Positions 7,743 to 47,063 of a DNA stretch of 64,000 nucleotides are shown here, piece by piece. The stretch spans positions 1 through 64,000 of the forward strand of contig NZ_FOQH01000002.1 of NCBI RefSeq assembly GCF_900113695.1, written 5' to 3'. Both the position numbers and the translations under genes were made by a program. The number at the start of each line of letters is the position of its first letter. Position 1 is the first letter of the stretch. The notes under the pieces are model-generated. The model was given only the letters and a program-made list of their open reading frames with translations, searched no databases and had not been told where the DNA came from. Source of the stretch: Albimonas pacifica. GTDB lineage: Bacteria; Pseudomonadota; Alphaproteobacteria; Rhodobacterales; Rhodobacteraceae.

Positions 7743-8699
7743 TCAGTGCGGCGCCTCGATCTGGTCGAGGATGGTCTCCAGCGCCGTCCCCGCGTCGCGC
7801 CCCTCGATCTCGGCGGTGGGGCCCAGCACGATCCGGTGGCGCATCGCGGGCAGGTACAGGCGCTTCACGTCGTCGGGAATGGCGTAGTCGCGCCCGTCGA
7901 GCGCGGCGGCCGCGCGGGCGGCGCGGGCGAGCGAATCCGCGGCGCGGGTGGAGGCGCCGTGCGCGATCTCGGCCGTCTCGCGCGTGGCGCGGACCAGGCG
8001 CACGATGTAGCGCAGGATCTCGTCGCCGAGGATCACGCCGTCGACCAGCCGCCGGCTGTCGGCGAGCGTCGCGGCGTCCAGCACGGGCGCGAGCGCGGCG
8101 GTCTCCGACCCGGCGGCCAGAGGCGCGTCCGCGTGGCGGCGCAGGATCGAGAACTCGACGCTCTCGGGCGGGAAGTCGATCTCGAGCTTGAACAGGAACC
8201 GGTCGAGCTGCGCCTCGGGCAGGGGGTAGGTCCCCTGCTGCTCGATCGGGTTCTGGGTGGCGATCACCAGGAACGCGTCGCCGAGATCGTGGTCGGTCCC
8301 GTCGATGCTGACGGCGTTCTCGTTCATCGCCTGCAGCAGGGCGGCCTGGGTCTTCGGCGGCGCCCGGTTGATCTCGTCCGCGAGCAGGACCTGGCTGAAG
8401 ATCGGCCCCCTGGCGAGGGTGAACTCGTTGGTCTGGAAGTTGAAGATCGAGGCGCCCAGGATGTCGCCCGGCATCAGGTCCGGCGTGAACTGGATGCGCC
8501 CGAACCGCAGGTCGAGCGCCGCCGAGAAGCTGCGCGCTAGCAGCGTCTTCGCCGTCCCCGGCGGGCCTTCCAGCAGCACGTGGCCGCGGGCGAAGAGGGC
8601 GGTCAGGAGCAGGTCCACGGCCTCCTCCTGGCCCTGCACCCGCCGTCCGATCTCGGTGCGGAGCGCATCGGCCCGTCCGCGCAGCGCTTCAAGCGTCAT
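7743..8699 (-). CDS. MoxR-family AAA+ ATPase
   Basis: A 318-aa AAA+ ATPase. Walker A is EGPPGTAKT at ~44-52, Walker B with the DE pair is VLLADEIN at ~103-111, and sensor 1 lies in [24 protein letters not shown]. The C-terminal AAA lid follows. MoxR ATPases act as chaperones in assembly of cofactor enzymes and envelope complexes, working with VWA proteins. The start overlaps the end of the DUF4350 gene by 11 bp, and the DUF58 gene follows 17 bp later, so this is one transcription unit. Confidence 0.93.
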
Positions 8700-10020
8700 C
8701 GTTCAATCGCTCCAACAGGATCTCCAGTTCGTCCACGCAGGCGACGGCCGCCTCGGGCGGCAGATCAGGGGGCGCGGCGCGGATCCGCCCGAGCAGGGCG
8801 GCCAGCCGCTTGCCCAGGGCGGCATCGCGCCGCCGCGCGAGCCGCAGGACCGCGGTCTCGGCCGGCTCCGGGCCGCGGGGGCCGAGCAGCCGGCGCGCCG
8901 TCGAGCCGATCCGGGCCTGGGCGTAGGCTTGCACCAGCGCGCCGTCCTGGCCGGTCAGGCGCATGAGCCGCGCCCGCGCGCCCAGCATCGCCGCGCGGGA
9001 GGGCGGGCGCCTCGCCTCGCCGTCCGCCGCCGGACCGGCGCGGACCGCGCCCCGCCACACGAACAGCGCCAGCGTCGCCCCGGCTCCCAGCCACAGAAGG
9101 CTGAAGGGGAAGGCCAGGAACCGGGCGAGGTCGGCCCAGGTGCGCGCCGGGCTCCCGCGACCGCGCTCCGCCGTCAGCCAGGTCTCGAGGCTGTAGTCGA
9201 CGATCACCCGCCTTCCGTCCGCCAGCCGGCCGACGAGATCCCGGGCGATGCGCGCGTTGTCGCCGAGCCGCAGGCCGTGGTTGTTCAGCAGGTCGGGATC
9301 GGAGAGGACATGCACCCAGCCCTCGCCGTCCGCGAGCTCCGTCGGGCAGAGGCCGAGGATCATCGCGCCGGGCCGGCCGATCTCGGGGCGGCAGCCGGCG
9401 CCCTCGAAGGTCCGGGCGAGGGGGAGCCGCGCCGTCAGCGTCCGGCCGTCCGCGCCGCGATAGGCGAAGTCGGAGAAGGGCGCCGTCGCCTGCCCGATCG
9501 CGCCGGCGGCCGCGGCCGGCCGGCCGAGGACCCGCTCCAGCAGCCGGGAGACGTCGGCCGGGTCGATCAGCAGGTCGGGATGGGCGACGCCGGTCAGGCG
9601 CATGCCGCTGCGCCACTTCGGCAGGACGAGCAGCGCGGGCGCCATCCCGACCTTCTCGCGCAGCGTCCGCGCGTCCATGTCGATCTCGTCGCGCTGCAGG
9701 CGCAGCTCGGTCTCGGTGGCGGGCGCGACGCGGGCTTCGTCGAGCGCGGCGTCGTAGACCGGCAGGACGGTCAGCCCCACCTCCCGGGCGGGGATCGTCC
9801 AGCCGCCCCGGAAGGACTGCGCGTCGAGCCCCCCCTCCGCGAGCCAGATCGCCAGCCCGTCGAAGCCCGACGGCGCCTGGCGGAGCGGCTGGTCGCGCCC
9901 GGCGGCGAAGAGCAGCATCGCGCCCAGGGCGGCGGCGAGCGACACGAGGACGACGATGGCGTCCAGGGGCGTGGACGCGGCGCGGCCGGGCGTCGGGCGG
10001 GCCGGGGCCGGGGCGCTCAC
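8689..10020 (-). CDS. DUF4350 domain protein
   Basis: A 443-aa membrane-anchored protein starting at GTG 10020 (GTGA overlap with the upstream stop). One helix lies near the N-terminus (ending GAMLLFAA). A large extracytoplasmic DUF4350 region follows, containing GFDGLAIWLAEGG and later DNARIARDLVGRLADGRRVIVDY. A second helix (FSLLWLGAGATLALFVW) leads to a cytoplasmic helical tail. DUF4350 genes typically sit between a DUF4129 gene and moxR, as here. Function unknown; presumably an envelope part of the MoxR system. Confidence 0.82.
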   Translation of the reverse strand: MSAPAPARPTPGRAASTPLDAIVVLVSLAAALGAMLLFAAGRDQPLRQAPSGFDGLAIWLAEGGLDAQSFRGGWTIPAREVGLTVLPVYDAALDEARVAPATETELRLQRDEIDMDARTLREKVGMAPALLVLPKWRSGMRLTGVAHPDLLIDPADVSRLLERVLGRPAAAAGAIGQATAPFSDFAYRGADGRTLTARLPLARTFEGAGCRPEIGRPGAMILGLCPTELADGEGWVHVLSDPDLLNNHGLRLGDNARIARDLVGRLADGRRVIVDYSLETWLTAERGRGSPARTWADLARFLAFPFSLLWLGAGATLALFVWRGAVRAGPAADGEARRPPSRAAMLGARARLMRLTGQDGALVQAYAQARIGSTARRLLGPRGPEPAETAVLRLARRRDAALGKRLAALLGRIRAAPPDLPPEAAVACVDELEILLERLNDDA

Positions 10021-10721
10021 GCCGCCCGCCCGTCGAACAGCGGCGCGACGCTCCGGGCGAGGCGGGCGAACTCCGCCTCGCTCATCTCCCGGTCGCCGAA
10101 CTGGACATGTTCCGCGGCCCGCACCAGCGGGCGCAGGCCCCCGGCCGCGTCGCGGGGCAGGCGGGCCAGCAGCTCGCGCGCGGTCCAGCTCGACCGCCAG
10201 CGCATCCCATGGCGCTCCGCGGCCTGCAAGAGGGCGCTGCGCGCGAGGTCGACGACCGCGGCGCTCCAGTCGTCGCGGGCCATGATCTCGGCGAGGCTGG
10301 GCGGCGTCGTCTCGGTCGTTTCGGGGGGGCGGCCGCCCGTTCGCGCCGCCGCGGCCGCGTTGCGCGGCTGCGCCCGGAAGGAGGCCGAGACCGGCGCGCC
10401 GAAGCGCCGGACGTGAAGAGCCACGCCCGCCAGGACCAGGACCGCGATCGCGCCGAGGACGATCTTCAGCGACACGGCCGGGACCACGCCGCTCCAGTCG
10501 CGCCCGGGCCGCTGGGGCAGGCCGCGGGTCGCCCGTTCGGGCAGCGGCGCGTTCGGGTCGGCGTAGGTCACGTCGGCGTCCACGCGCCGCCCGACGGTCT
10601 CGAGATAGCTCCGCCCGCTCTCGGACACCGCCGACGGCGGCGTCTCCGCGCCCCGGGCGCTGGCGACGCCGGGTCCCGACGAAAGGATTAAGACAATGAG
10701 CGTGATGCAGAAATTTCTCAT
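10017..10721 (-). CDS. DUF4129-type secreted/membrane protein of the MoxR cluster
   Basis: A 234-aa protein with an N-terminal signal peptide (residues 1-~23, ending ASARG), a periplasmic stretch, one membrane helix near residues 85-103, and a cytoplasmic C-terminal domain. The domain includes SWTARELLARLP and RAAEHVQFGDREMSEAEFARL, which match the DUF4129 C-terminal pattern. It is the first gene of the MoxR set and starts 81 bp after the fused sensor/binding-protein gene on the same strand, so the clusters may be co-transcribed. No catalytic residues are evident. Confidence 0.78.
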   Translation of the reverse strand: MRNFCITLIVLILSSGPGVASARGAETPPSAVSESGRSYLETVGRRVDADVTYADPNAPLPERATRGLPQRPGRDWSGVVPAVSLKIVLGAIAVLVLAGVALHVRRFGAPVSASFRAQPRNAAAAARTGGRPPETTETTPPSLAEIMARDDWSAAVVDLARSALLQAAERHGMRWRSSWTARELLARLPRDAAGGLRPLVRAAEHVQFGDREMSEAEFARLARSVAPLFDGRAA

Positions 10722-10802
10722 CCGCCGCCACTCAAGCGCAGGATGCTCGGCGATGCAGTCGCTTCTCGGCGGGCGGCGCGGGGCCCCTCCGCCGTCTCCG
10801 CC

Positions 10803-13202
10803 TCAGCGCCCCAGCGAGGTCTCCCAGGCGTCGAGGAAGTCCTTGCGCTTGAGGGCGTCGAGGTAGGTCAGCAGGCCGGGGGCGAGGCGGATGGGCACGA
10901 AGGCGCCGAGGCGCTCGTGGATGCGGCGCTCGATCTCCCGCTCGGCGGGGGGCGACGGGACGAGGGAAAGCAGCGGGGTCTGCGCGGCGACGATCCGCTG
11001 GCCCTCTTCCGAGAGCAGGAAGGCCACGAACCGGTCCGCGAGCTCGGGGTTGCGCGCGCCCTTCGGGACGAAGGCGGTGCGCGACATCACCAGGTTGTAG
11101 TCGTCGAAGAAATGCAGGCCGAGGTGGGGCTCCGCCTCCGCCTGGGCGGCGGCGTAGGAGCCGATGGCGTTGAAGACGAAGGCGAGCTCGCCCCGCGCCG
11201 TCGCCGCGACCATCTCCGAGGTGCAGCAGAAGGTGCGCACATCCGCCCGGCCCAGCACCTCGAACAGCCGCAGCGCCTGGGGGCCCTGCAGGCTGTCCTG
11301 CGTCGCATAGAGATAGCCCACGCCCGAGAGCGCGATGTCGTAGGTCCCGATCCGCCCGCGGAAGCGGTCCTCGTTCTCGCGCACGAAGGTCGCGAGGTCG
11401 CGGTGGCTGGCGGGAAGCTCCTCGGGCGAGACCGCCTGCCGATCGTAGATCATCACCGCCGGCTCGAAGGTGAAGCCGAAGATCTCGGAGCGCCACGCCG
11501 CCCAGGGCGGCGGCACGATCTGGGGCGGCAGCTCGATGCGCCGCGCGAGGCCCCGGTTGACCAGGTCCACCTGCAGGTCCATCGCCGAGGAGATCACCAC
11601 GTCCGGCGGCGCCGCGTCGCCGAGATCGAGCATCGCGCGGTGCAGGTCGAGGGTCTGGAACTCCACATAGTCGACCGCGACGCCGGGGGTGCGGGCCTCG
11701 AACGCCTCGATCAGGGGCCGGATGGCGGGCGCGTCGGTGGCGCTGTGCACGACAAGCGTCTGCGCGCGCGCCCCGCCCGCCGCGAGCGGCAGGCAGGCCG
11801 CGAGCAGCAGCGCCGCGAGAATCCGCCTGAAGATCAAGGTCGCCTCCAGTCCTCCCAGCCGCGAGCGGGCGAGCGTCAGCTCCGCCCCGTGCCCGTCGGC
11901 CACCGCCTTGACGATCGAGAGCCCGAGGCCCGAGCCGGCGCTGGCCTGCGAGAGCGAGGTGAAGCGCTCGGTCGCGCGGGGCAGGTCCGCCTCCGCGATG
12001 CCGGGGCCGGCGTCCTCGACGCGCAGGCGGATGCGGTCGCCCGCGCCCTCCAGCGTGATGGCGACGGCGGTGTCGGGCGGCCCGTGGCGCACGGCGTTCT
12101 CGATCAGGTTTCGCAGCGCCTCGCGGATCGAGACGCTGTCGCCCTCGATCACGTCCTCGCCCTCGGCGACGGCCTCGCCCACGAAGGACAGCGAGACCCG
12201 CCGCATCCGGCTGTCGCGCAGGCTCTCGGCCAGGACGTCGCGCACCAGCGGCTTGAGGGCGGTGGGCCGCAGGCTGGCGCGGTCGGAGCGGTGGATGACC
12301 ATGGCGTTGGCCAGCAGCTGGTTGGTCAGCCGCACCGTGCGCGCCGCCTGCCGGTCGGCCTTCAGCACGCGCGAGCGCATCTTCTCGTAGTCCTCGGCGT
12401 CGACGGCCAGCGACAGGTGCCCCTGCAGCGCCGACAGCGAGGTGCGGGTCTGGTGGGCGACGTCGGCGATGAAGGTCTCGGTCAGGCTCCGGCTGCGGCG
12501 CAGGCTGCGGATGAAGCCGTTGATCGCGTCGAACAGGCCCCGGATCTCGCGCGGGGGGGCGCCCTCGACCTCGCGCAGGTCGGAGGGCTCGCGCTGCGCG
12601 AGGTCGGCCGCGATCTGGCGCAGCGGCGAGAGCGAGGTGCGGATCGCCACCCACACGAAGCCGAGCCCGATCAGCGACAGCACCGCCAGCCCCGCGAGGC
12701 CGGTCGCGAAGAACGAGAGCTGCTGCGCGCGCCGCCGCTCGACCGTCTGGCCGATCTGCACCGCCACCCACTGCCGCCCGCCCGAGCCGGCGAGCTGCCG
12801 GCCCTGGAGGACGAAGCGGAAGAGGGCGCCGCGGTAGTCCCGCTCGAAGAACGCCGGCGTCGCCTCGGGCTCGGCGCCGGGCGGGACGGGCAGGTCGCCG
12901 GCGCCGGTGATCTCGCGCTCGCCGGGGATGAAGATCCGGTACTGCACCCGGTCGACGGGGTTGAGCGACAGGATCTCCATCGCCGAGGTCGGCAGGTCCA
13001 CCGTGACGCCCTCGGGCCCCTCGGAGACGCGCTCGAGGATGGCGAGCGCGGCGCCGGCCAGCAGCAGGTCATGGGTGCGGTCGGCGGCGTTGCGCGCGTA
13101 GCTCCACAGCAGCGCCGAGATCAGGATCAGCAGGATCGCGAAGGCCGCCGCCATCGACACCAGCAGCCGGCGCTGGAGCGAATGGCCGGCGGGGTCACTC
13201 AT
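10803..13202 (-). CDS. TctE-type histidine kinase fused in frame to a periplasmic solute-binding protein
   Basis: A 799-aa reading frame joining two normally separate proteins. Residues 1-~455 form a sensor kinase: membrane helices at ~13-33 and ~165-187 flanking a periplasmic domain, HAMP, H-box with His250 (DVAHQTRTSL), N-box LRNLIENAVRHG, and G-boxes DAGPGIAEAD and GSGLGLSIVKAV. The kinase ends at GGLEATLIF, the usual C-terminus. The frame then runs into ILAALLLAACLPLAAGGARA, a signal-peptide or third membrane helix, and a ~320-residue binding protein of the ABC Fe(III)/PgtC-like type. An in-frame TTG at 11837 has a strong GGAGG five bases upstream, so a free binding protein (344 aa) may also be made. 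Signalling linked to the divergent transporter is likely. Confidence 0.85.
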   Translation of the reverse strand: MSDPAGHSLQRRLLVSMAAAFAILLILISALLWSYARNAADRTHDLLLAGAALAILERVSEGPEGVTVDLPTSAMEILSLNPVDRVQYRIFIPGEREITGAGDLPVPPGAEPEATPAFFERDYRGALFRFVLQGRQLAGSGGRQWVAVQIGQTVERRRAQQLSFFATGLAGLAVLSLIGLGFVWVAIRTSLSPLRQIAADLAQREPSDLREVEGAPPREIRGLFDAINGFIRSLRRSRSLTETFIADVAHQTRTSLSALQGHLSLAVDAEDYEKMRSRVLKADRQAARTVRLTNQLLANAMVIHRSDRASLRPTALKPLVRDVLAESLRDSRMRRVSLSFVGEAVAEGEDVIEGDSVSIREALRNLIENAVRHGPPDTAVAITLEGAGDRIRLRVEDAGPGIAEADLPRATERFTSLSQASAGSGLGLSIVKAVADGHGAELTLARSRLGGLEATLIFRRILAALLLAACLPLAAGGARAQTLVVHSATDAPAIRPLIEAFEARTPGVAVDYVEFQTLDLHRAMLDLGDAAPPDVVISSAMDLQVDLVNRGLARRIELPPQIVPPPWAAWRSEIFGFTFEPAVMIYDRQAVSPEELPASHRDLATFVRENEDRFRGRIGTYDIALSGVGYLYATQDSLQGPQALRLFEVLGRADVRTFCCTSEMVAATARGELAFVFNAIGSYAAAQAEAEPHLGLHFFDDYNLVMSRTAFVPKGARNPELADRFVAFLLSEEGQRIVAAQTPLLSLVPSPPAEREIERRIHERLGAFVPIRLAPGLLTYLDALKRKDFLDAWETSLGR

Positions 13203-13869
13203 CGTCCGACAGATAGGCGATGTAGCCCAGGCCCCGCGCCGTCTTGATGACCAGGGGCGTGCCCTCGAGCTTGCGCCGCAGGCGGGTGACGAGCTGCTCG
13301 ACCGCGTTCAGGCTCGGCGCCTCCTCGAAGGTGTAGAGGCGGTCGGCCACGTCCTCCTTGGTCAGCATCCGGCCCATGTTGTCGATCATGATCTCGAGGA
13401 GCTGGACCTCCCGCGCGCGCATCTGGGCGTCGCGGCCGTCGACGGTGGCGCGCTTCGCCGCCCGGTCGAAGACCAGCGAGCCGGCGGCGAAGACGTTGCT
13501 CGCCGCCCCCGCCCGCCGCCGCGCCAGCACCCGGCAGCGGGCCGAGAGCTCGCGGAAGTCGACGGGCTTGATCATGTAGTCGTCGGCCCCCGCATCCAGC
13601 CCGATCACCCGGTCGTCGATCTGGCTGCGGGCGGTGAGGATGATCACCGGCGTCTCGTCGGCGCGGTTGCGCAGCGAGCGCAGGACCTCGTAGCCGCTGC
13701 GCCCGGGCAGGTTCACGTCGAGCAGCACGATGTCGAACTTGAAGTGGCGCAGCAGCTCGTTGGCCTCGTCGCCGTCGCGCTCGCGGTCCACGGAATGCCC
13801 CTCGGCGCGGAGCCGATCGATGATCGTCTCGGCCAGGTCGTCGTTGTCTTCCACGAGCAGCATTCTCAT
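13195..13869 (-). CDS. OmpR/TctD-type response regulator
   Basis: A 224-aa transcription factor. The receiver domain spans residues 1-~115, with the acidic pocket VEDND, phospho-acceptor Asp51 in VLLDVNLPG, Thr in ILTARS and Lys in MIKPVDF. A winged-helix DNA-binding domain follows, with NAVEQLVTRLRRKLEG and a wing ending KTARGLGYIAYL. It overlaps the kinase gene by 8 bp and is divergent from tctC. It is the natural candidate to bind the phased repeats at 13931-13974 and control the tripartite tricarboxylate transporter. Confidence 0.92.
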   Translation of the reverse strand: MRMLLVEDNDDLAETIIDRLRAEGHSVDRERDGDEANELLRHFKFDIVLLDVNLPGRSGYEVLRSLRNRADETPVIILTARSQIDDRVIGLDAGADDYMIKPVDFRELSARCRVLARRRAGAASNVFAAGSLVFDRAAKRATVDGRDAQMRAREVQLLEIMIDNMGRMLTKEDVADRLYTFEEAPSLNAVEQLVTRLRRKLEGTPLVIKTARGLGYIAYLSDDE

Positions 13870-32845: not shown

Positions 32846-33093
32846 TCCGGCGCGCGGCGGTCGCGCGCCGACTCGCCCGGCCGCGGCGATGCGGCGGGCG
32901 GGCGGCGCGCGGACGCGTCGCATCCGCGGGGCGTGACGCCTGCGCGCCGCGGCCGGGGGTTGTGCGGGCGGCGGGCGACGAACCGCCCTTGCCTGTTGCG
33001 TCGGAGTTGAATAACCCCTGAAGTCGACTGGAGGCAGCCGGCGCGGCTTCGCCAGGTTTGGCGGACGCCGGGGATTTTCAGGAGGGCGGAGCA

Positions 33094-33669
33094 GTGGGCG
33101 AACAGCCCTTCCAGGTCGACTTTCCCTTTCGCGGGAGCCGGGATTACGTCCACAGCGCAAGCCTTTGCAACGAGATCGACCGCCGGTTCCCTCAACGTGA
33201 GCGCCTCGAGCTGGTGCTGCGCAGCTGGATGCGCGGGCGCGTCGCCTTCACGCCCCTGGGCGCGGGCGAGCGGGGCGAGGGCGCCGGCCAGGCGAAGCTG
33301 AGGATCGGCGGCGAGGACCGGATCTGGACCCTCGCCGAGGTCCCCTCCGAGCCCGGCGAGACCCGCGTGCCCTACGACGAGGACGGGCTCGTCGCCCAGG
33401 ATCCGGTGACCGACGGGCGCATCACCTGCCGTCCGCATGGCGCGGGCAGCTTCTTCGACCGGCTGATCGCGGCCAACAAGAAGCTGATCAACCACACGCT
33501 GAACCCCGGGGTGAAGCTGATCGCGGCCAAGGTCGTGGTCGACGGCGCGCCCGGCCCCGACGCCCCCTTCACCCTGGTCCTCGCGTCCCACATGGGCGTG
33601 AAGATCTTCAAGAGCCGGATCCTGATCGGGGATTCGCCAATCGGGGAGCTTGTCTACTATGGCGGCTGA
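33094..33669 (+). CDS. Unrecognised protein, first gene of the KASIII-ACP operon
   Basis: A 191-aa soluble protein starting at GTG 33094, with a consensus AGGAGG at 33080-33085 eight bases before it. No signal peptide or membrane helix. I do not recognise a family. Distinctive pieces are VDFPFRGSRDYVHSASLCNEIDRRFP, WTLAEVPSEPGETRVPYDEDG and KLIAAKVVVDG...FTLVLASHMGVKIFKSRI. The alternating strands and size would fit a hot-dog-like acyl-thioester protein, but that is a guess. It overlaps the ketosynthase gene by 11 bp, so a role in the same acyl pathway is likely. Confidence 0.7.
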   Translation: MGEQPFQVDFPFRGSRDYVHSASLCNEIDRRFPQRERLELVLRSWMRGRVAFTPLGAGERGEGAGQAKLRIGGEDRIWTLAEVPSEPGETRVPYDEDGLVAQDPVTDGRITCRPHGAGSFFDRLIAANKKLINHTLNPGVKLIAAKVVVDGAPGPDAPFTLVLASHMGVKIFKSRILIGDSPIGELVYYGG

Positions 33670-34624
33670 GAACCCTTTCTGCCTGCGCGCGATCGGCGTG
33701 CACCTGCCCGAGCGGCGGGTGGACAACACCGTACGGGCGGAGCGTTTCGACTACGACCTCGACAGCCTGCGCAGCAAGATCGGCATCGCCGCCACCGCGC
33801 GGATGGACGAGGGGCAGGAGACCTCGGACCTCTGCGTCGCCGCGGTGCGCGACCTCGAGGCGCGGCTCGAGGCGGCGGGCGAGGGGGGGCTCGACCTCGG
33901 CTCGATCGACCTGCTGGTGGTGGTCACCCAGCACCCCGACGGGCACGGGCTGCCGCACACCTCGGCGATCGTGCACGGCAAGCTGGGCCTGCCGGACGGG
34001 TGCTTCGCCTTCGACATCTCGCTGGGCTGCTCGGGCTACGTGGCGGCGCTGGCCACCGTCTCGGGCCACCTGATGGCGACGGGGGGCGAGCGGGCGTTGC
34101 TGGTCACCGCCGACCCCTACTCCAAGTCGCTGAGCGAGGACGACAAGAACACCTCGATGATCTTCGGCGACGCGGCCACCGCGACCCTGATCGAGAAGGG
34201 CGAGGGCTGGCGCATCGGCGCCTTCGACTTCGGCACCAAGGGCGCGCGCCACGACGCCCTGCGCCGGGACGAGGAGGGGGTGCTGCAGATGAACGGGCGC
34301 GCCGTCTTCGACTTCTGCGCCCTCAACGTGCCCAAGAGCCTGAAGCGCGCGATGGAGGCGAACGGCGTCACGCTCGACGACGTCGACGCCTACGCGCTGC
34401 ACCCCGGCTCGAAATACATCGTCGACACGGTCTGCAAGCGCGCCGGGCTGACCGCGCCCGAGCGGCTGGACTGCGCCGACTACGGCAATACCGTTTCCTC
34501 CTCCATCCCCATGATCCTGGCGGGCCTGAACCGCGAGGCGGCGGGCACGGTCCTGATCTCCGGATTCGGCGTGGGTCTGGGATGGGCCACCACCGTTTTG
34601 ACCACGAAAGGATCCCAGGCGTGA
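33659..34624 (+). CDS. 3-oxoacyl-ACP synthase III (FabH-like)
   Basis: A 321-aa thiolase-fold condensing enzyme. The active-site Cys is in FDISLGCSGYVAAL, the His in AYALHPGSKYI and the Asn in DYGNTVSSSIP, completing the Cys-His-Asn triad of KAS III. The His motif is HPGSK rather than the housekeeping FabH HQAN, so this is probably a specialised paralogue. Its start overlaps the upstream gene by 11 bp, and its stop overlaps the ACP start (GTGA). It likely condenses an acyl-CoA starter with an acyl-ACP. Confidence 0.9.
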   Translation: MAAENPFCLRAIGVHLPERRVDNTVRAERFDYDLDSLRSKIGIAATARMDEGQETSDLCVAAVRDLEARLEAAGEGGLDLGSIDLLVVVTQHPDGHGLPHTSAIVHGKLGLPDGCFAFDISLGCSGYVAALATVSGHLMATGGERALLVTADPYSKSLSEDDKNTSMIFGDAATATLIEKGEGWRIGAFDFGTKGARHDALRRDEEGVLQMNGRAVFDFCALNVPKSLKRAMEANGVTLDDVDAYALHPGSKYIVDTVCKRAGLTAPERLDCADYGNTVSSSIPMILAGLNREAAGTVLISGFGVGLGWATTVLTTKGSQA

Positions 34625-34866
34625 CCCGAGCCGACACCGAACAGCTGATCCGCGACCTGATCTCCGAGAACGTCGACGGCTTCGACGGCCACCAGCTCAA
34701 GGCCGACGCGCGCTTCATCGACGCCGGCATGGACAGCCTCGACCTGGCCACCGTGCTGCTCGAGGTGCAGGAGGCCACCGGCGTCACCTTCCCCGACGGC
34801 GAGGAAGAGAAATACGACAGCCTGACCAAGCTGCTCGACTACATCGAGAAGGCGCAGTCGGAATGA
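34621..34866 (+). CDS. Acyl carrier protein
   Basis: An 81-aa acidic protein read from GTG 34621. The phosphopantetheine attachment Ser lies in AGMDSLDLATVLLEVQ (DSL motif), and the four-helix ACP pattern is complete. It is coupled on both sides: GTGA with the KAS III gene and ATGA with the hydrolase gene. This strongly suggests a dedicated carrier for the operon's acyl chain rather than the fatty-acid ACP. Confidence 0.92.
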   Translation: MTRADTEQLIRDLISENVDGFDGHQLKADARFIDAGMDSLDLATVLLEVQEATGVTFPDGEEEKYDSLTKLLDYIEKAQSE

Positions 34867-35915
34867 AGGCGGCCGTCGCGGGGCAGGACGCCCCTCGCTG
34901 GCGGCGGATCGTCGACGCGGCCACGCCGGTGCTCTACGCCGAGGACGCGCCCCGCGCCGCGGTCGAGAAAGAGCTGCGCCGGATGGACGACTTCGCGGCC
35001 GCCGGCCCCAAGGGGGCGGCCCGGCCCGAGTTCCGGATCATGCACGACCTCGCCCGCTGGCGGCTGTCGGGCGAGTACGCGCCCGGCTACGAGAGCCTCA
35101 ACGAGGCGCGGCTGCAATTCTGGCACCTGGAGAAGTTCTGCCCGGTGCTCGACTTCCAGAAGCGCGTGCTGGAGGCCACCGTCGCCGACTATCCCGGGGC
35201 GGAGGGGCCGGCGAAGTTCCTGAGCATCTACCGCGGCGTCACGGGCCCGGTGGATCCGCGCTTCGACGACGTGACCCGGGACATCGTGATCTTCCGCCGG
35301 CCCGGCGCGACGCTGACGGTGATCGCCTTCTCCGGCCTGCAGGGCATGATCTCGGGCGTCGGCTTCACCATGTACGACCGGGCGGTGACCCAGAAGCTGG
35401 GCGCCAACCTGATCGTGGTGCGCGACCTCAACCGGCTGTTCTACCTCGGCGGGCTGCGCTGCTTCGGCCCGCTGGAGCAGTCGATCGAGGGCCTGCGCGG
35501 CGTGCTGGCCGAGTTCGCGGGCACCCGCATCGTCGCCGCCGGCGGCTCGGCGGGGGTGTTCGGCGCCCTTCTGATGTCGCCCGCCCTGGGCATCCGCCAC
35601 GTGGTTGCGAGCTCGGGCCCCACCTCGCTCGACATCGGCCTGAACGAGGGCGACCGCCAGCGCTACATGGCGGTGAAGGAGGCGCACGAGCGGGGCGAGG
35701 CGGCCTATCCGGACCTCGTCGCCGACGTCGTAGCCTCTGACATCGAGCGCATCGAGTTCTTCGTGGGCGGCGACCACGACTACGACCTGCGCCAGATGCG
35801 CAACATCGAGGCGAAATGCCCGGCCGTCCGTCCGCATGTGGTGGCGGGCGAGGCCTCCCACAGCGTGCTCGACAAGGTGATCGCCGACGGCTCGTATCTC
35901 GCCGCCTTCGACTGA
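34863..35915 (+). CDS. Alpha/beta-hydrolase-like protein of the KASIII-ACP operon
   Basis: A 350-aa soluble protein. The second half has an alpha/beta-hydrolase core: nucleophile elbow GGSAGVFGALLMSPALG (Ser of GxSxG-like GGSAG), a possible Asp in GGDHDYD, and a late His in AGEASHSVLDKV, in the correct order. The first ~130 residues are a helical extension I do not recognise. It is the last gene of the operon and overlaps the ACP gene by four bases. It may release or transfer the acyl chain (thioesterase or acyltransferase); this is inferred. Confidence 0.78.
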   Translation: MKAAVAGQDAPRWRRIVDAATPVLYAEDAPRAAVEKELRRMDDFAAAGPKGAARPEFRIMHDLARWRLSGEYAPGYESLNEARLQFWHLEKFCPVLDFQKRVLEATVADYPGAEGPAKFLSIYRGVTGPVDPRFDDVTRDIVIFRRPGATLTVIAFSGLQGMISGVGFTMYDRAVTQKLGANLIVVRDLNRLFYLGGLRCFGPLEQSIEGLRGVLAEFAGTRIVAAGGSAGVFGALLMSPALGIRHVVASSGPTSLDIGLNEGDRQRYMAVKEAHERGEAAYPDLVADVVASDIERIEFFVGGDHDYDLRQMRNIEAKCPAVRPHVVAGEASHSVLDKVIADGSYLAAFD

Positions 35916-45842: not shown

Positions 45843-47063
45843 CTACAGGAGCACGTCGTCGAGGATCTGGCGCAGCTTCACCCCCTCCAGCGTCACCTCG
45901 CCGCCGCCGCCCAGGTTGATCACCAGGTCCCCGTCCTCGACGGAGGTCAGCGCCTTGAACGCGGCCTTGTTCGCGATCTCGTAGGCCGAGAGGTCCAGCA
46001 GGTCGACGTCGTTCTGGAAGTCGAACACGCGGTCGATCCCCTCGCCCGGCTCGAACACGAAGCGGTCGGCGCCCTCGCCCCCGAACAGCCGGTCGCGCCC
46101 GCCGTCGCCGTCGAGCACGTCGTCGCCGGCCCCGCCGCGCAGCACGTCGTTGGCCGCGCCCCCCTGCAGCAGGTCGTCGCCGCCGCCGCCGGCGAGCTCG
46201 TCGCGGTCGTCGCCGCCGTCGAGCGCGTCCTCCCCGCCGCGGCCCCGCAGCAGGTCCGCGCCGGCCCCGCCCGAGAACGCGTCCTCGGCCGAGGCGCCGG
46301 TCAGCCGGTCGGCGCCGTCGCCGCCCGTCACGGTCCCGTCGACGAAGCCGCCGCGCACGGCGACGTAGACGTCGTCGCCGGCGTCGAGGATCACGTCGCC
46401 CATCAGGCCGCCGGCGTTGCGCACGACGTCGGCCTCGTTCGAGGCGTCGACCGACGTGCCGCCGCGCCCGACGATGACGCCGCTGTTGAACAGCGTGCCG
46501 GCGCCGTCGGTGAAGATCACCCCCACCTGCGCGGCGGAGATCGTGCCGGTGTTGGCGATGGTCGCGCCCTGGCCGACCTCGATGCCGAGGCCGAAGCCCA
46601 GCACATCGCCCGTCGCCTCGATCAGGCCGGCGTTCGAGATGTCGGCGCCCGCGCCCGAGATCGAGATCCCGCGCTGGCCGGAGAGGACGCCGGTGTTGGA
46701 CACCACGCCCCCGTCGCCCAGGAGCTGGACCGCGGCGTCCCCGAAGCCGCGGATCAGGCCGGCGTTGGCGACCTCGTGGTCGTCGCCGTTCAGCTCGACG
46801 CCGTCGCTGCCCGCGATGATCGAGCCGCCGACGTCCACCGTCACCCGCAGCGAGCTGGAGCCGGAGTCCGAGCTCACGGCGTCGCTGTCCTCGGCGAAGA
46901 TCGCGCCCTGCACCACCAGGTGCACGGCGCTCAGGGCGGCGAAGTCGAAGGCGTCGCCGAAGTTGGGCGTCGACAGGCGGCCGGTGGCCGTGACCACGAC
47001 CATGTCGCCCGCCGCGACCGCGTCGAAGCCGTCGATGTCCGTGCCGATGAAAGTCAGCGTCAT
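45843..47063 (-). CDS. RTX calcium-binding protein, probably secreted
   Basis: A 406-aa acidic protein. Residues ~70-240 show repeated short beta strands of the type -NTG-ISA-- / SNAGLI-A-GD, resembling a right-handed beta-helix. Residues ~255-340 carry Ca-binding RTX nonapeptides (GGAGADLLRGRGGEDALDGG and following GG-GDD-L copies). The C-terminal ~65 residues (DRVFDFQNDVDLLDLSAYEI, LEGVKLRQILDDVLL) look like a type I secretion signal region. No T1SS genes are in the window. It is an isolated gene, possibly a surface or adhesive protein. Confidence 0.87.
   Translation of the reverse strand: MTLTFIGTDIDGFDAVAAGDMVVVTATGRLSTPNFGDAFDFAALSAVHLVVQGAIFAEDSDAVSSDSGSSSLRVTVDVGGSIIAGSDGVELNGDDHEVANAGLIRGFGDAAVQLLGDGGVVSNTGVLSGQRGISISGAGADISNAGLIEATGDVLGFGLGIEVGQGATIANTGTISAAQVGVIFTDGAGTLFNSGVIVGRGGTSVDASNEADVVRNAGGLMGDVILDAGDDVYVAVRGGFVDGTVTGGDGADRLTGASAEDAFSGGAGADLLRGRGGEDALDGGDDRDELAGGGGDDLLQGGAANDVLRGGAGDDVLDGDGGRDRLFGGEGADRFVFEPGEGIDRVFDFQNDVDLLDLSAYEIANKAAFKALTSVEDGDLVINLGGGGEVTLEGVKLRQILDDVLL

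Follow-up and report, generated by a model that had tools for sequence, protein, structure and literature searches.

A four-gene operon of Albimonas pacifica combines an uncharacterised, predicted double hot-dog protein with a KAS III of the HxGS type, a private ACP and a putative acyltransferase

Many bacterial surface sugars bear unusual acyl groups, and the synthesis of these groups is poorly understood. Among the closest described systems is the viosamine island of P. syringae pv. tabaci, which comprises the KAS III VioS, an ACP, the reductase VioR and the acyltransferase VioB, and whose proposed product is N-(3-hydroxy-1-oxobutyl) viosamine (PMC3927599). Like the operon described here, this island (vioS, vioR, acp, vioB) has a dedicated KAS III and ACP, the proposed makers of a short acyl chain for transfer to an amino sugar by an acyltransferase (PMC3927599). 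It differs, however, in its ketoreductase, in the kind of transferase and in the sugar genes linked to it, and no description of P1, the first protein of our operon, is given there (PMC3927599), whereas our operon has P1 and P4 and is without linked reductase or sugar genes. Islands of Aeromonas were set aside as a precedent, as they contain an ACP, a reductase and a ligase while the available portion of the source does not mention a KAS III (PMC7874193). A dedicated KAS III-ACP acyl supply with a transferase is already known, and what is new here is the predicted double hot-dog P1 family.

The operon lies in a 64-kb window (the window being the whole stretch of A. pacifica DNA that was analysed) and is formed by four co-directional + strand genes spanning 33094-35915, with the following features:

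33080..33085 (approximate), + strand: Shine-Dalgarno-like AGGAGG, a few bases 5' of the GTG start of P1
33094..33669, + strand: P1, 191 aa, GTG start; unnamed, predicted double hot-dog family with invariant Arg16, Tyr18 and Lys129
33659..34624, + strand: P2, 321 aa; KAS III of the HxGS type, triad Cys124-His248-Asn277
34621..34866, + strand: P3, 81 aa; acyl carrier protein with a DSL phosphopantetheine site
34863..35915, + strand: P4, 350 aa; predicted helical N-terminal domain and alpha/beta-hydrolase-fold domain with Ser229-Asp308-His333; proposed acyltransferase

Re-reading of the coordinates gave overlaps of 11, 4 and 4 bp at the three junctions, exactly those reported by the initial annotation. 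The GTG start of P1 is consistent with the N-termini of its orthologues, while promoter and terminator scans yielded nothing informative. The KAS III alignment was scanned against 84,980 species genomes and the 80 closest loci were kept. Among these, the order P1-KAS III-ACP-P4 is found in three other alphaproteobacterial genomes, L063, L064 (Sinisalibacter aestuarii) and L065, where the KAS III is respectively 67%, 65% and 74% identical to that of the window, the P1 orthologues are 45-50% identical and the P4 orthologues 33-35%. The search for the four-gene set in other genomes that had been suggested at the outset was thus positive, and given this recurrence of an identical order the four-gene operon is real and more than chance. 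In the KAS III tree the window and these three loci form one fully supported clade. Further along the window, on the - strand at 45843-47063, lies a 406-aa frame which is repetitive, rich in Asp, Gly and Ser, and resembles a secreted repeat protein.

P2 carries Cys124 in GCSGY, His248 in HPGSK and Asn277 in GNTVSS; both the intact Cys-His-Asn triad and the HPGSK replacing HQAN, as read initially, are present. With FabH (beta-ketoacyl-ACP synthase III) it has in common the fold, the triad and the Pfam ACP_syn_III domains (PF08545/PF08541), but its score against the FabH subfamily TIGR00747 is 128 bits, far below the cut-off of 292. Moreover, in place of the HQAN of FabH the window KAS III and its relatives show an HxGS-like motif, and the HxGS-type KAS IIIs lie on a supported branch separate from FabH in the tree, in which the FabH row L024 was mis-read and its long branch is unreliable. 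Judged by these features, P2 is a member of the KAS III superfamily and not a FabH. That it might be the only housekeeping FabH, a possibility raised at the outset, was rejected, as a housekeeping-type FabH 29% identical to P2 is encoded on another contig of the genome (G000:C28:82464-83402). The ACP, P3, matches PF00550 with its DSL serine intact and has ACP P0010 as its orthologue in L065. Together, these observations support the earlier proposal of a private ACP, apart from fatty-acid synthesis, served by a dedicated, non-housekeeping KAS III.

KAS IIIs related to P2 were also observed in other surroundings. In SAR324 and related bacteria, an HxGS-KAS III without P1 or ACP directly follows a nucleoside-type-looking ABC transporter (L079, 2793-3707), an arrangement also seen in L086, L099, L100, L106, L113, L114, L132 and L142; the transporter comprises a substrate-binding protein, an ATPase and two permeases, and this is a different use of HxGS-KAS III. 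On a plasmid of Pseudomonas veronii 1YdBTEX2 (L060, 10212-12921) a KAS III of the same type overlaps phbC, which encodes a polyhydroxybutyrate polymerase, and phbB is close by; on plasmid pAB510a of Azospirillum sp. B510 (L061, 787-11953) a long PKS-like frame is followed by a related KAS III and then by an ACP and an AMP-ligase-like gene, as read by eye.

A P1 homologue is located directly upstream of an HxGS-KAS III, within about 40 bp of its start, in 40 of the 80 closest loci. Loci with P1 span at least 11 phyla (Pseudomonadota, Bacteroidota, Chlorobiota, Balneolota, Verrucomicrobiota, Aquificota, Campylobacterota, Thermodesulfobacteriota, Chloroflexota, Bacillota and Omnitrophota), many of the genomes being metagenome-assembled. 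Once near-duplicates were removed, a linked ACP was present in 37/38 P1 loci compared to 3/30 P1-less loci, and a linked acyltransferase in 35/38 compared to 3/30. Fisher values for both associations are tiny when kinship is ignored, and a kinship-corrected test of P1 and ACP, based on five independent pairs on well-supported branches, gave about 4:0 in direction (p = 0.125). The P1-ACP association is therefore strong, and not phylogenetically proven. The adjacency of P1 and KAS III and the counts of linked ACP rule out homologues scattered without co-occurrence, the outcome which the initial annotation had set against its own reading.

Closer to A. pacifica, a single-sequence P1 search, which is of low sensitivity, found none in 245 other genomes of the order nor in plasmids, homologues having surfaced by profile searches, and P4 was found in neither of two congeners searched; this indicates that the operon is rare locally. 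A phylum-wide search using a three-row P1 profile returned weak matches only, probably due to chance. Cassettes of P1-ACP-P4 lacking the KAS occur in the alphaproteobacterial loci L047, L050, L057 and L058, the ACP being read directly in L047 and L050. The L047 cassette (9376-12578) stands beside a glutathionylspermidine-synthase-type ATP-grasp gene (PF03738), which may mean an amine acceptor in that branch. In L068, an LbH-KAS III-ACP set is preceded by P1-like frames in short overlapping pieces (8486-10903), and downstream of it, on the opposite strand, another P1 homologue is found (13169-13750), possibly reflecting decay or duplication of P1.

The commonest cassette among the relatives is LbH acyltransferase-P1-KAS III-ACP. 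Indeed, the place of P4 is held by an LbH acyltransferase in 31/40 P1-KAS III loci, by an AAC(3)-like acyltransferase in three (L076, L098 and L133) and by a weak GNAT-like protein in L096. The window, L063, L064 and L065 all have P1 directly 5' of an HxGS-KAS III together with a linked ACP. The core is thus P1-KAS III-ACP with exchangeable acyltransferases, which was not visible to the initial annotation. DegT aminotransferase, epimerase, PseF, PseG and NeuB/PseI genes are frequent neighbours of the relatives, and the cassettes with LbH (LpxD-like) acyltransferases in pseudaminic-acid and amino-sugar clusters have the same core in the same order as the window; these cassettes have a left-handed beta-helix transferase and are mostly found amid sugar genes, whereas P4 replaces it in the window clade, which stands by itself. 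Furthermore, an exopolysaccharide-type plasmid of Pontibrevibacter displays the order ACP-LbH-P1-KAS III-FdtA-DegT, a P1-less KAS III of the HxGS type adjoins flagellin and pseudaminic-acid genes in Pseudomonas, and a more distant KAS III is found beside such genes in Azospirillum.

As had been noted initially, P1 resembles nothing recognised: it has no family match in Pfam, NCBIfam or PHROGs, and none among PDB sequences. It represents an uncharacterised protein family and is the novel part of the operon. The comparison of its structure with hot-dog folds, proposed at the same time, was carried out, and the AlphaFold model (37-sequence alignment, pLDDT 94.6, pTM 0.90) is a compact double hot-dog of two repeats, each made of a helix and four strands. 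Foldseek matches it to FatA and TesB thioesterases and to PKS dehydratases (E about 1e-6), yet the superpositions show a high rmsd across the full length, so the likeness is at the level of fold and not of family. At 191 aa P1 is smaller than these proteins, resembles none of them in sequence and shows no conservation of the dehydratase His; the canonical position, His20, is His in 21/38 members, which argues against P1 being a standard dehydratase. In contrast, Arg16 and Tyr18 are invariant in 42/42 members, KAS-less ones included, and this suggests a retained active or acyl-binding site. All 38 members adjacent to KAS III have Lys129, a position occupied by Leu or Val in the four KAS-less members, which may be one lineage, so that this change is perhaps a single evolutionary event. 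It is quite possible, if short of probable, that P1 catalyses nothing itself and serves KAS III and ACP structurally, as a scaffold or as a gate for substrates, a role that would fit the overall model of the operon given below; the variability at the canonical His agrees with this, as does the invariance of Lys129 solely where KAS III adjoins, as expected of an interface residue, but the conservation of Arg16 and Tyr18 even in KAS-less members hints otherwise. We put forward only tentatively that P1 might instead found a new double hot-dog enzyme family, acting on the ACP-bound KAS III product through an Arg-Tyr-Lys set distinct from the known hot-dog catalytic pairs and making a new acyl decoration of surface glycans in many phyla, the window clade having swapped its transferase for an alpha/beta-hydrolase-fold acyltransferase. 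The idea of P1 as a substitute for a linked ketoreductase found no support, given that the roughly 6 kb around each of the 80 relatives, with or without P1, contained no FabG-like SDR.

For P4, the ordered Ser-Asp-His set described initially holds, as Ser229 (within a GGSAG elbow), Asp308 and His333 are conserved, and its alpha/beta-hydrolase nature is backed by structure prediction and distant relatives; a Pfam search gave no match, to hydrolases or otherwise, and an acyltransferase is favoured over a plain hydrolase. The model, obtained from a 4-sequence alignment (pLDDT 83.5), consists of a helical domain and an alpha/beta-hydrolase domain. Its top fold match in the PDB is CsaC, the capsule O-acetyltransferase of Neisseria meningitidis serogroup A, with assorted hydrolases and antigen 85 close behind and the type II thioesterase RifR and MenH among the other matches. 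CsaC acts via Ser-His-Asp through an acyl-enzyme, and this type of triad carries a Gln extension (PMC7501274). P4 has the same predicted fold with Ser-His-Asp, but differs in having no detectable sequence similarity to CsaC, an additional helical N-terminal domain and a link to an ACP rather than to acetyl-CoA; a profile search of PDB sequences with P4 did not find CsaC and gave no sequence-level match. Since CsaC outranks the hydrolases as a fold match by a small margin only, a thioesterase is an equally possible identity for P4. More distant domains of the P4 type, joined to long repeat-like N-termini, are found in L048 (1101-12756) and L152 (7551-16830), within exopolysaccharide-like clusters where acyl-AMP ligases, pyruvyltransferases and glycosyltransferases were read by eye.

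Taking these results together, we consider it somewhat probable that the operon supplies acyl-ACP and, with a transferase of its own, decorates a sugar-like acceptor, in a manner comparable to the viosamine island of Pseudomonas. P2 would use a short acyl-CoA and malonyl-loaded P3, the private ACP, in a condensation that yields a 3-oxoacyl-ACP, and P1, encoded beside the KAS III, would act on or hold the ACP-bound intermediate. P4, as a serine acyltransferase of the alpha/beta-hydrolase fold, would form an acyl-enzyme and pass the chain on to an acceptor hydroxyl or amine, the acceptor being most probably a sugar or a glycan of the cell surface. The 3-oxo group may be reduced by P1 or by a borrowed FabG, or may be kept; a borrowed FabG is proposed because no ketoreductase is linked, neither in the operon, as stated initially, nor elsewhere in the window or near the 80 relatives. 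The single condensation followed by release or transfer which the initial annotation had put forward is supported by this analysis. The model is built on observed gene order, co-conservation and conserved residues and on predicted folds, from which we infer the substrates, the direction of transfer and the acceptor. Regarding the latter, no sugar, nucleotide-sugar or glycan gene was recognised in the 64-kb window read by eye and NeuB was not found in the genome, which counts against a sugar acceptor; a pseudaminic-acid role in this genome was rejected given the missing NeuB. Two strong DegT aminotransferase matches are present elsewhere in the genome. Among the three orthologue loci, L063 alone has a glycosyltransferase-looking neighbour, itself without Pfam match, and no linked glycan genes were found in L064 or L065.

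These surroundings bear on two other explanations. In the one proposed initially, P4 is a thioesterase or hydrolase and the operon releases a diffusible metabolite or signal, namely a short 3-oxo or 3-hydroxy acid in free form or a derivative of such an acid. The full Ser-Asp-His set of P4, its resemblance to many hydrolases including RifR and MenH, the lack of acceptor-making genes near the operon in the window and the isolation of the operon in most of the four clade members all agree with such a release. We nonetheless regard it as unlikely, since known acyltransferase folds fill the position of P4 in most relatives, the best fold match of P4 is itself an acyltransferase, and no receptor, regulator or exporter is conserved alongside the operon in the window and orthologue loci. 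A free signal molecule in particular finds no support, the relatives being located in surface-glycan and amino-sugar clusters beside acyltransferases. Alternatively, P4 is a transferase and the chain is destined for a lipid, peptide or other small amine. The window, L064 and L065, all without linked glycan genes, are compatible with this, as is the ATP-grasp neighbour of the KAS-less cassette in L047, but every informative P1-KAS III-ACP relative with a recognisable acceptor pathway points to sugars, and a non-glycan acceptor seems to us distinctly improbable.

Through this analysis, an unnamed protein family found in no fewer than 11 phyla is linked to one particular type of KAS III and to a private ACP, with an exchangeable transferase. 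Glycan clusters that produce acyl groups other than acetyl can thereby be predicted directly, and three defined proteins become available as a system for probing what the double hot-dog protein does beside KAS III. Annotations that name HxGS-type KAS IIIs as FabH would be corrected as well.
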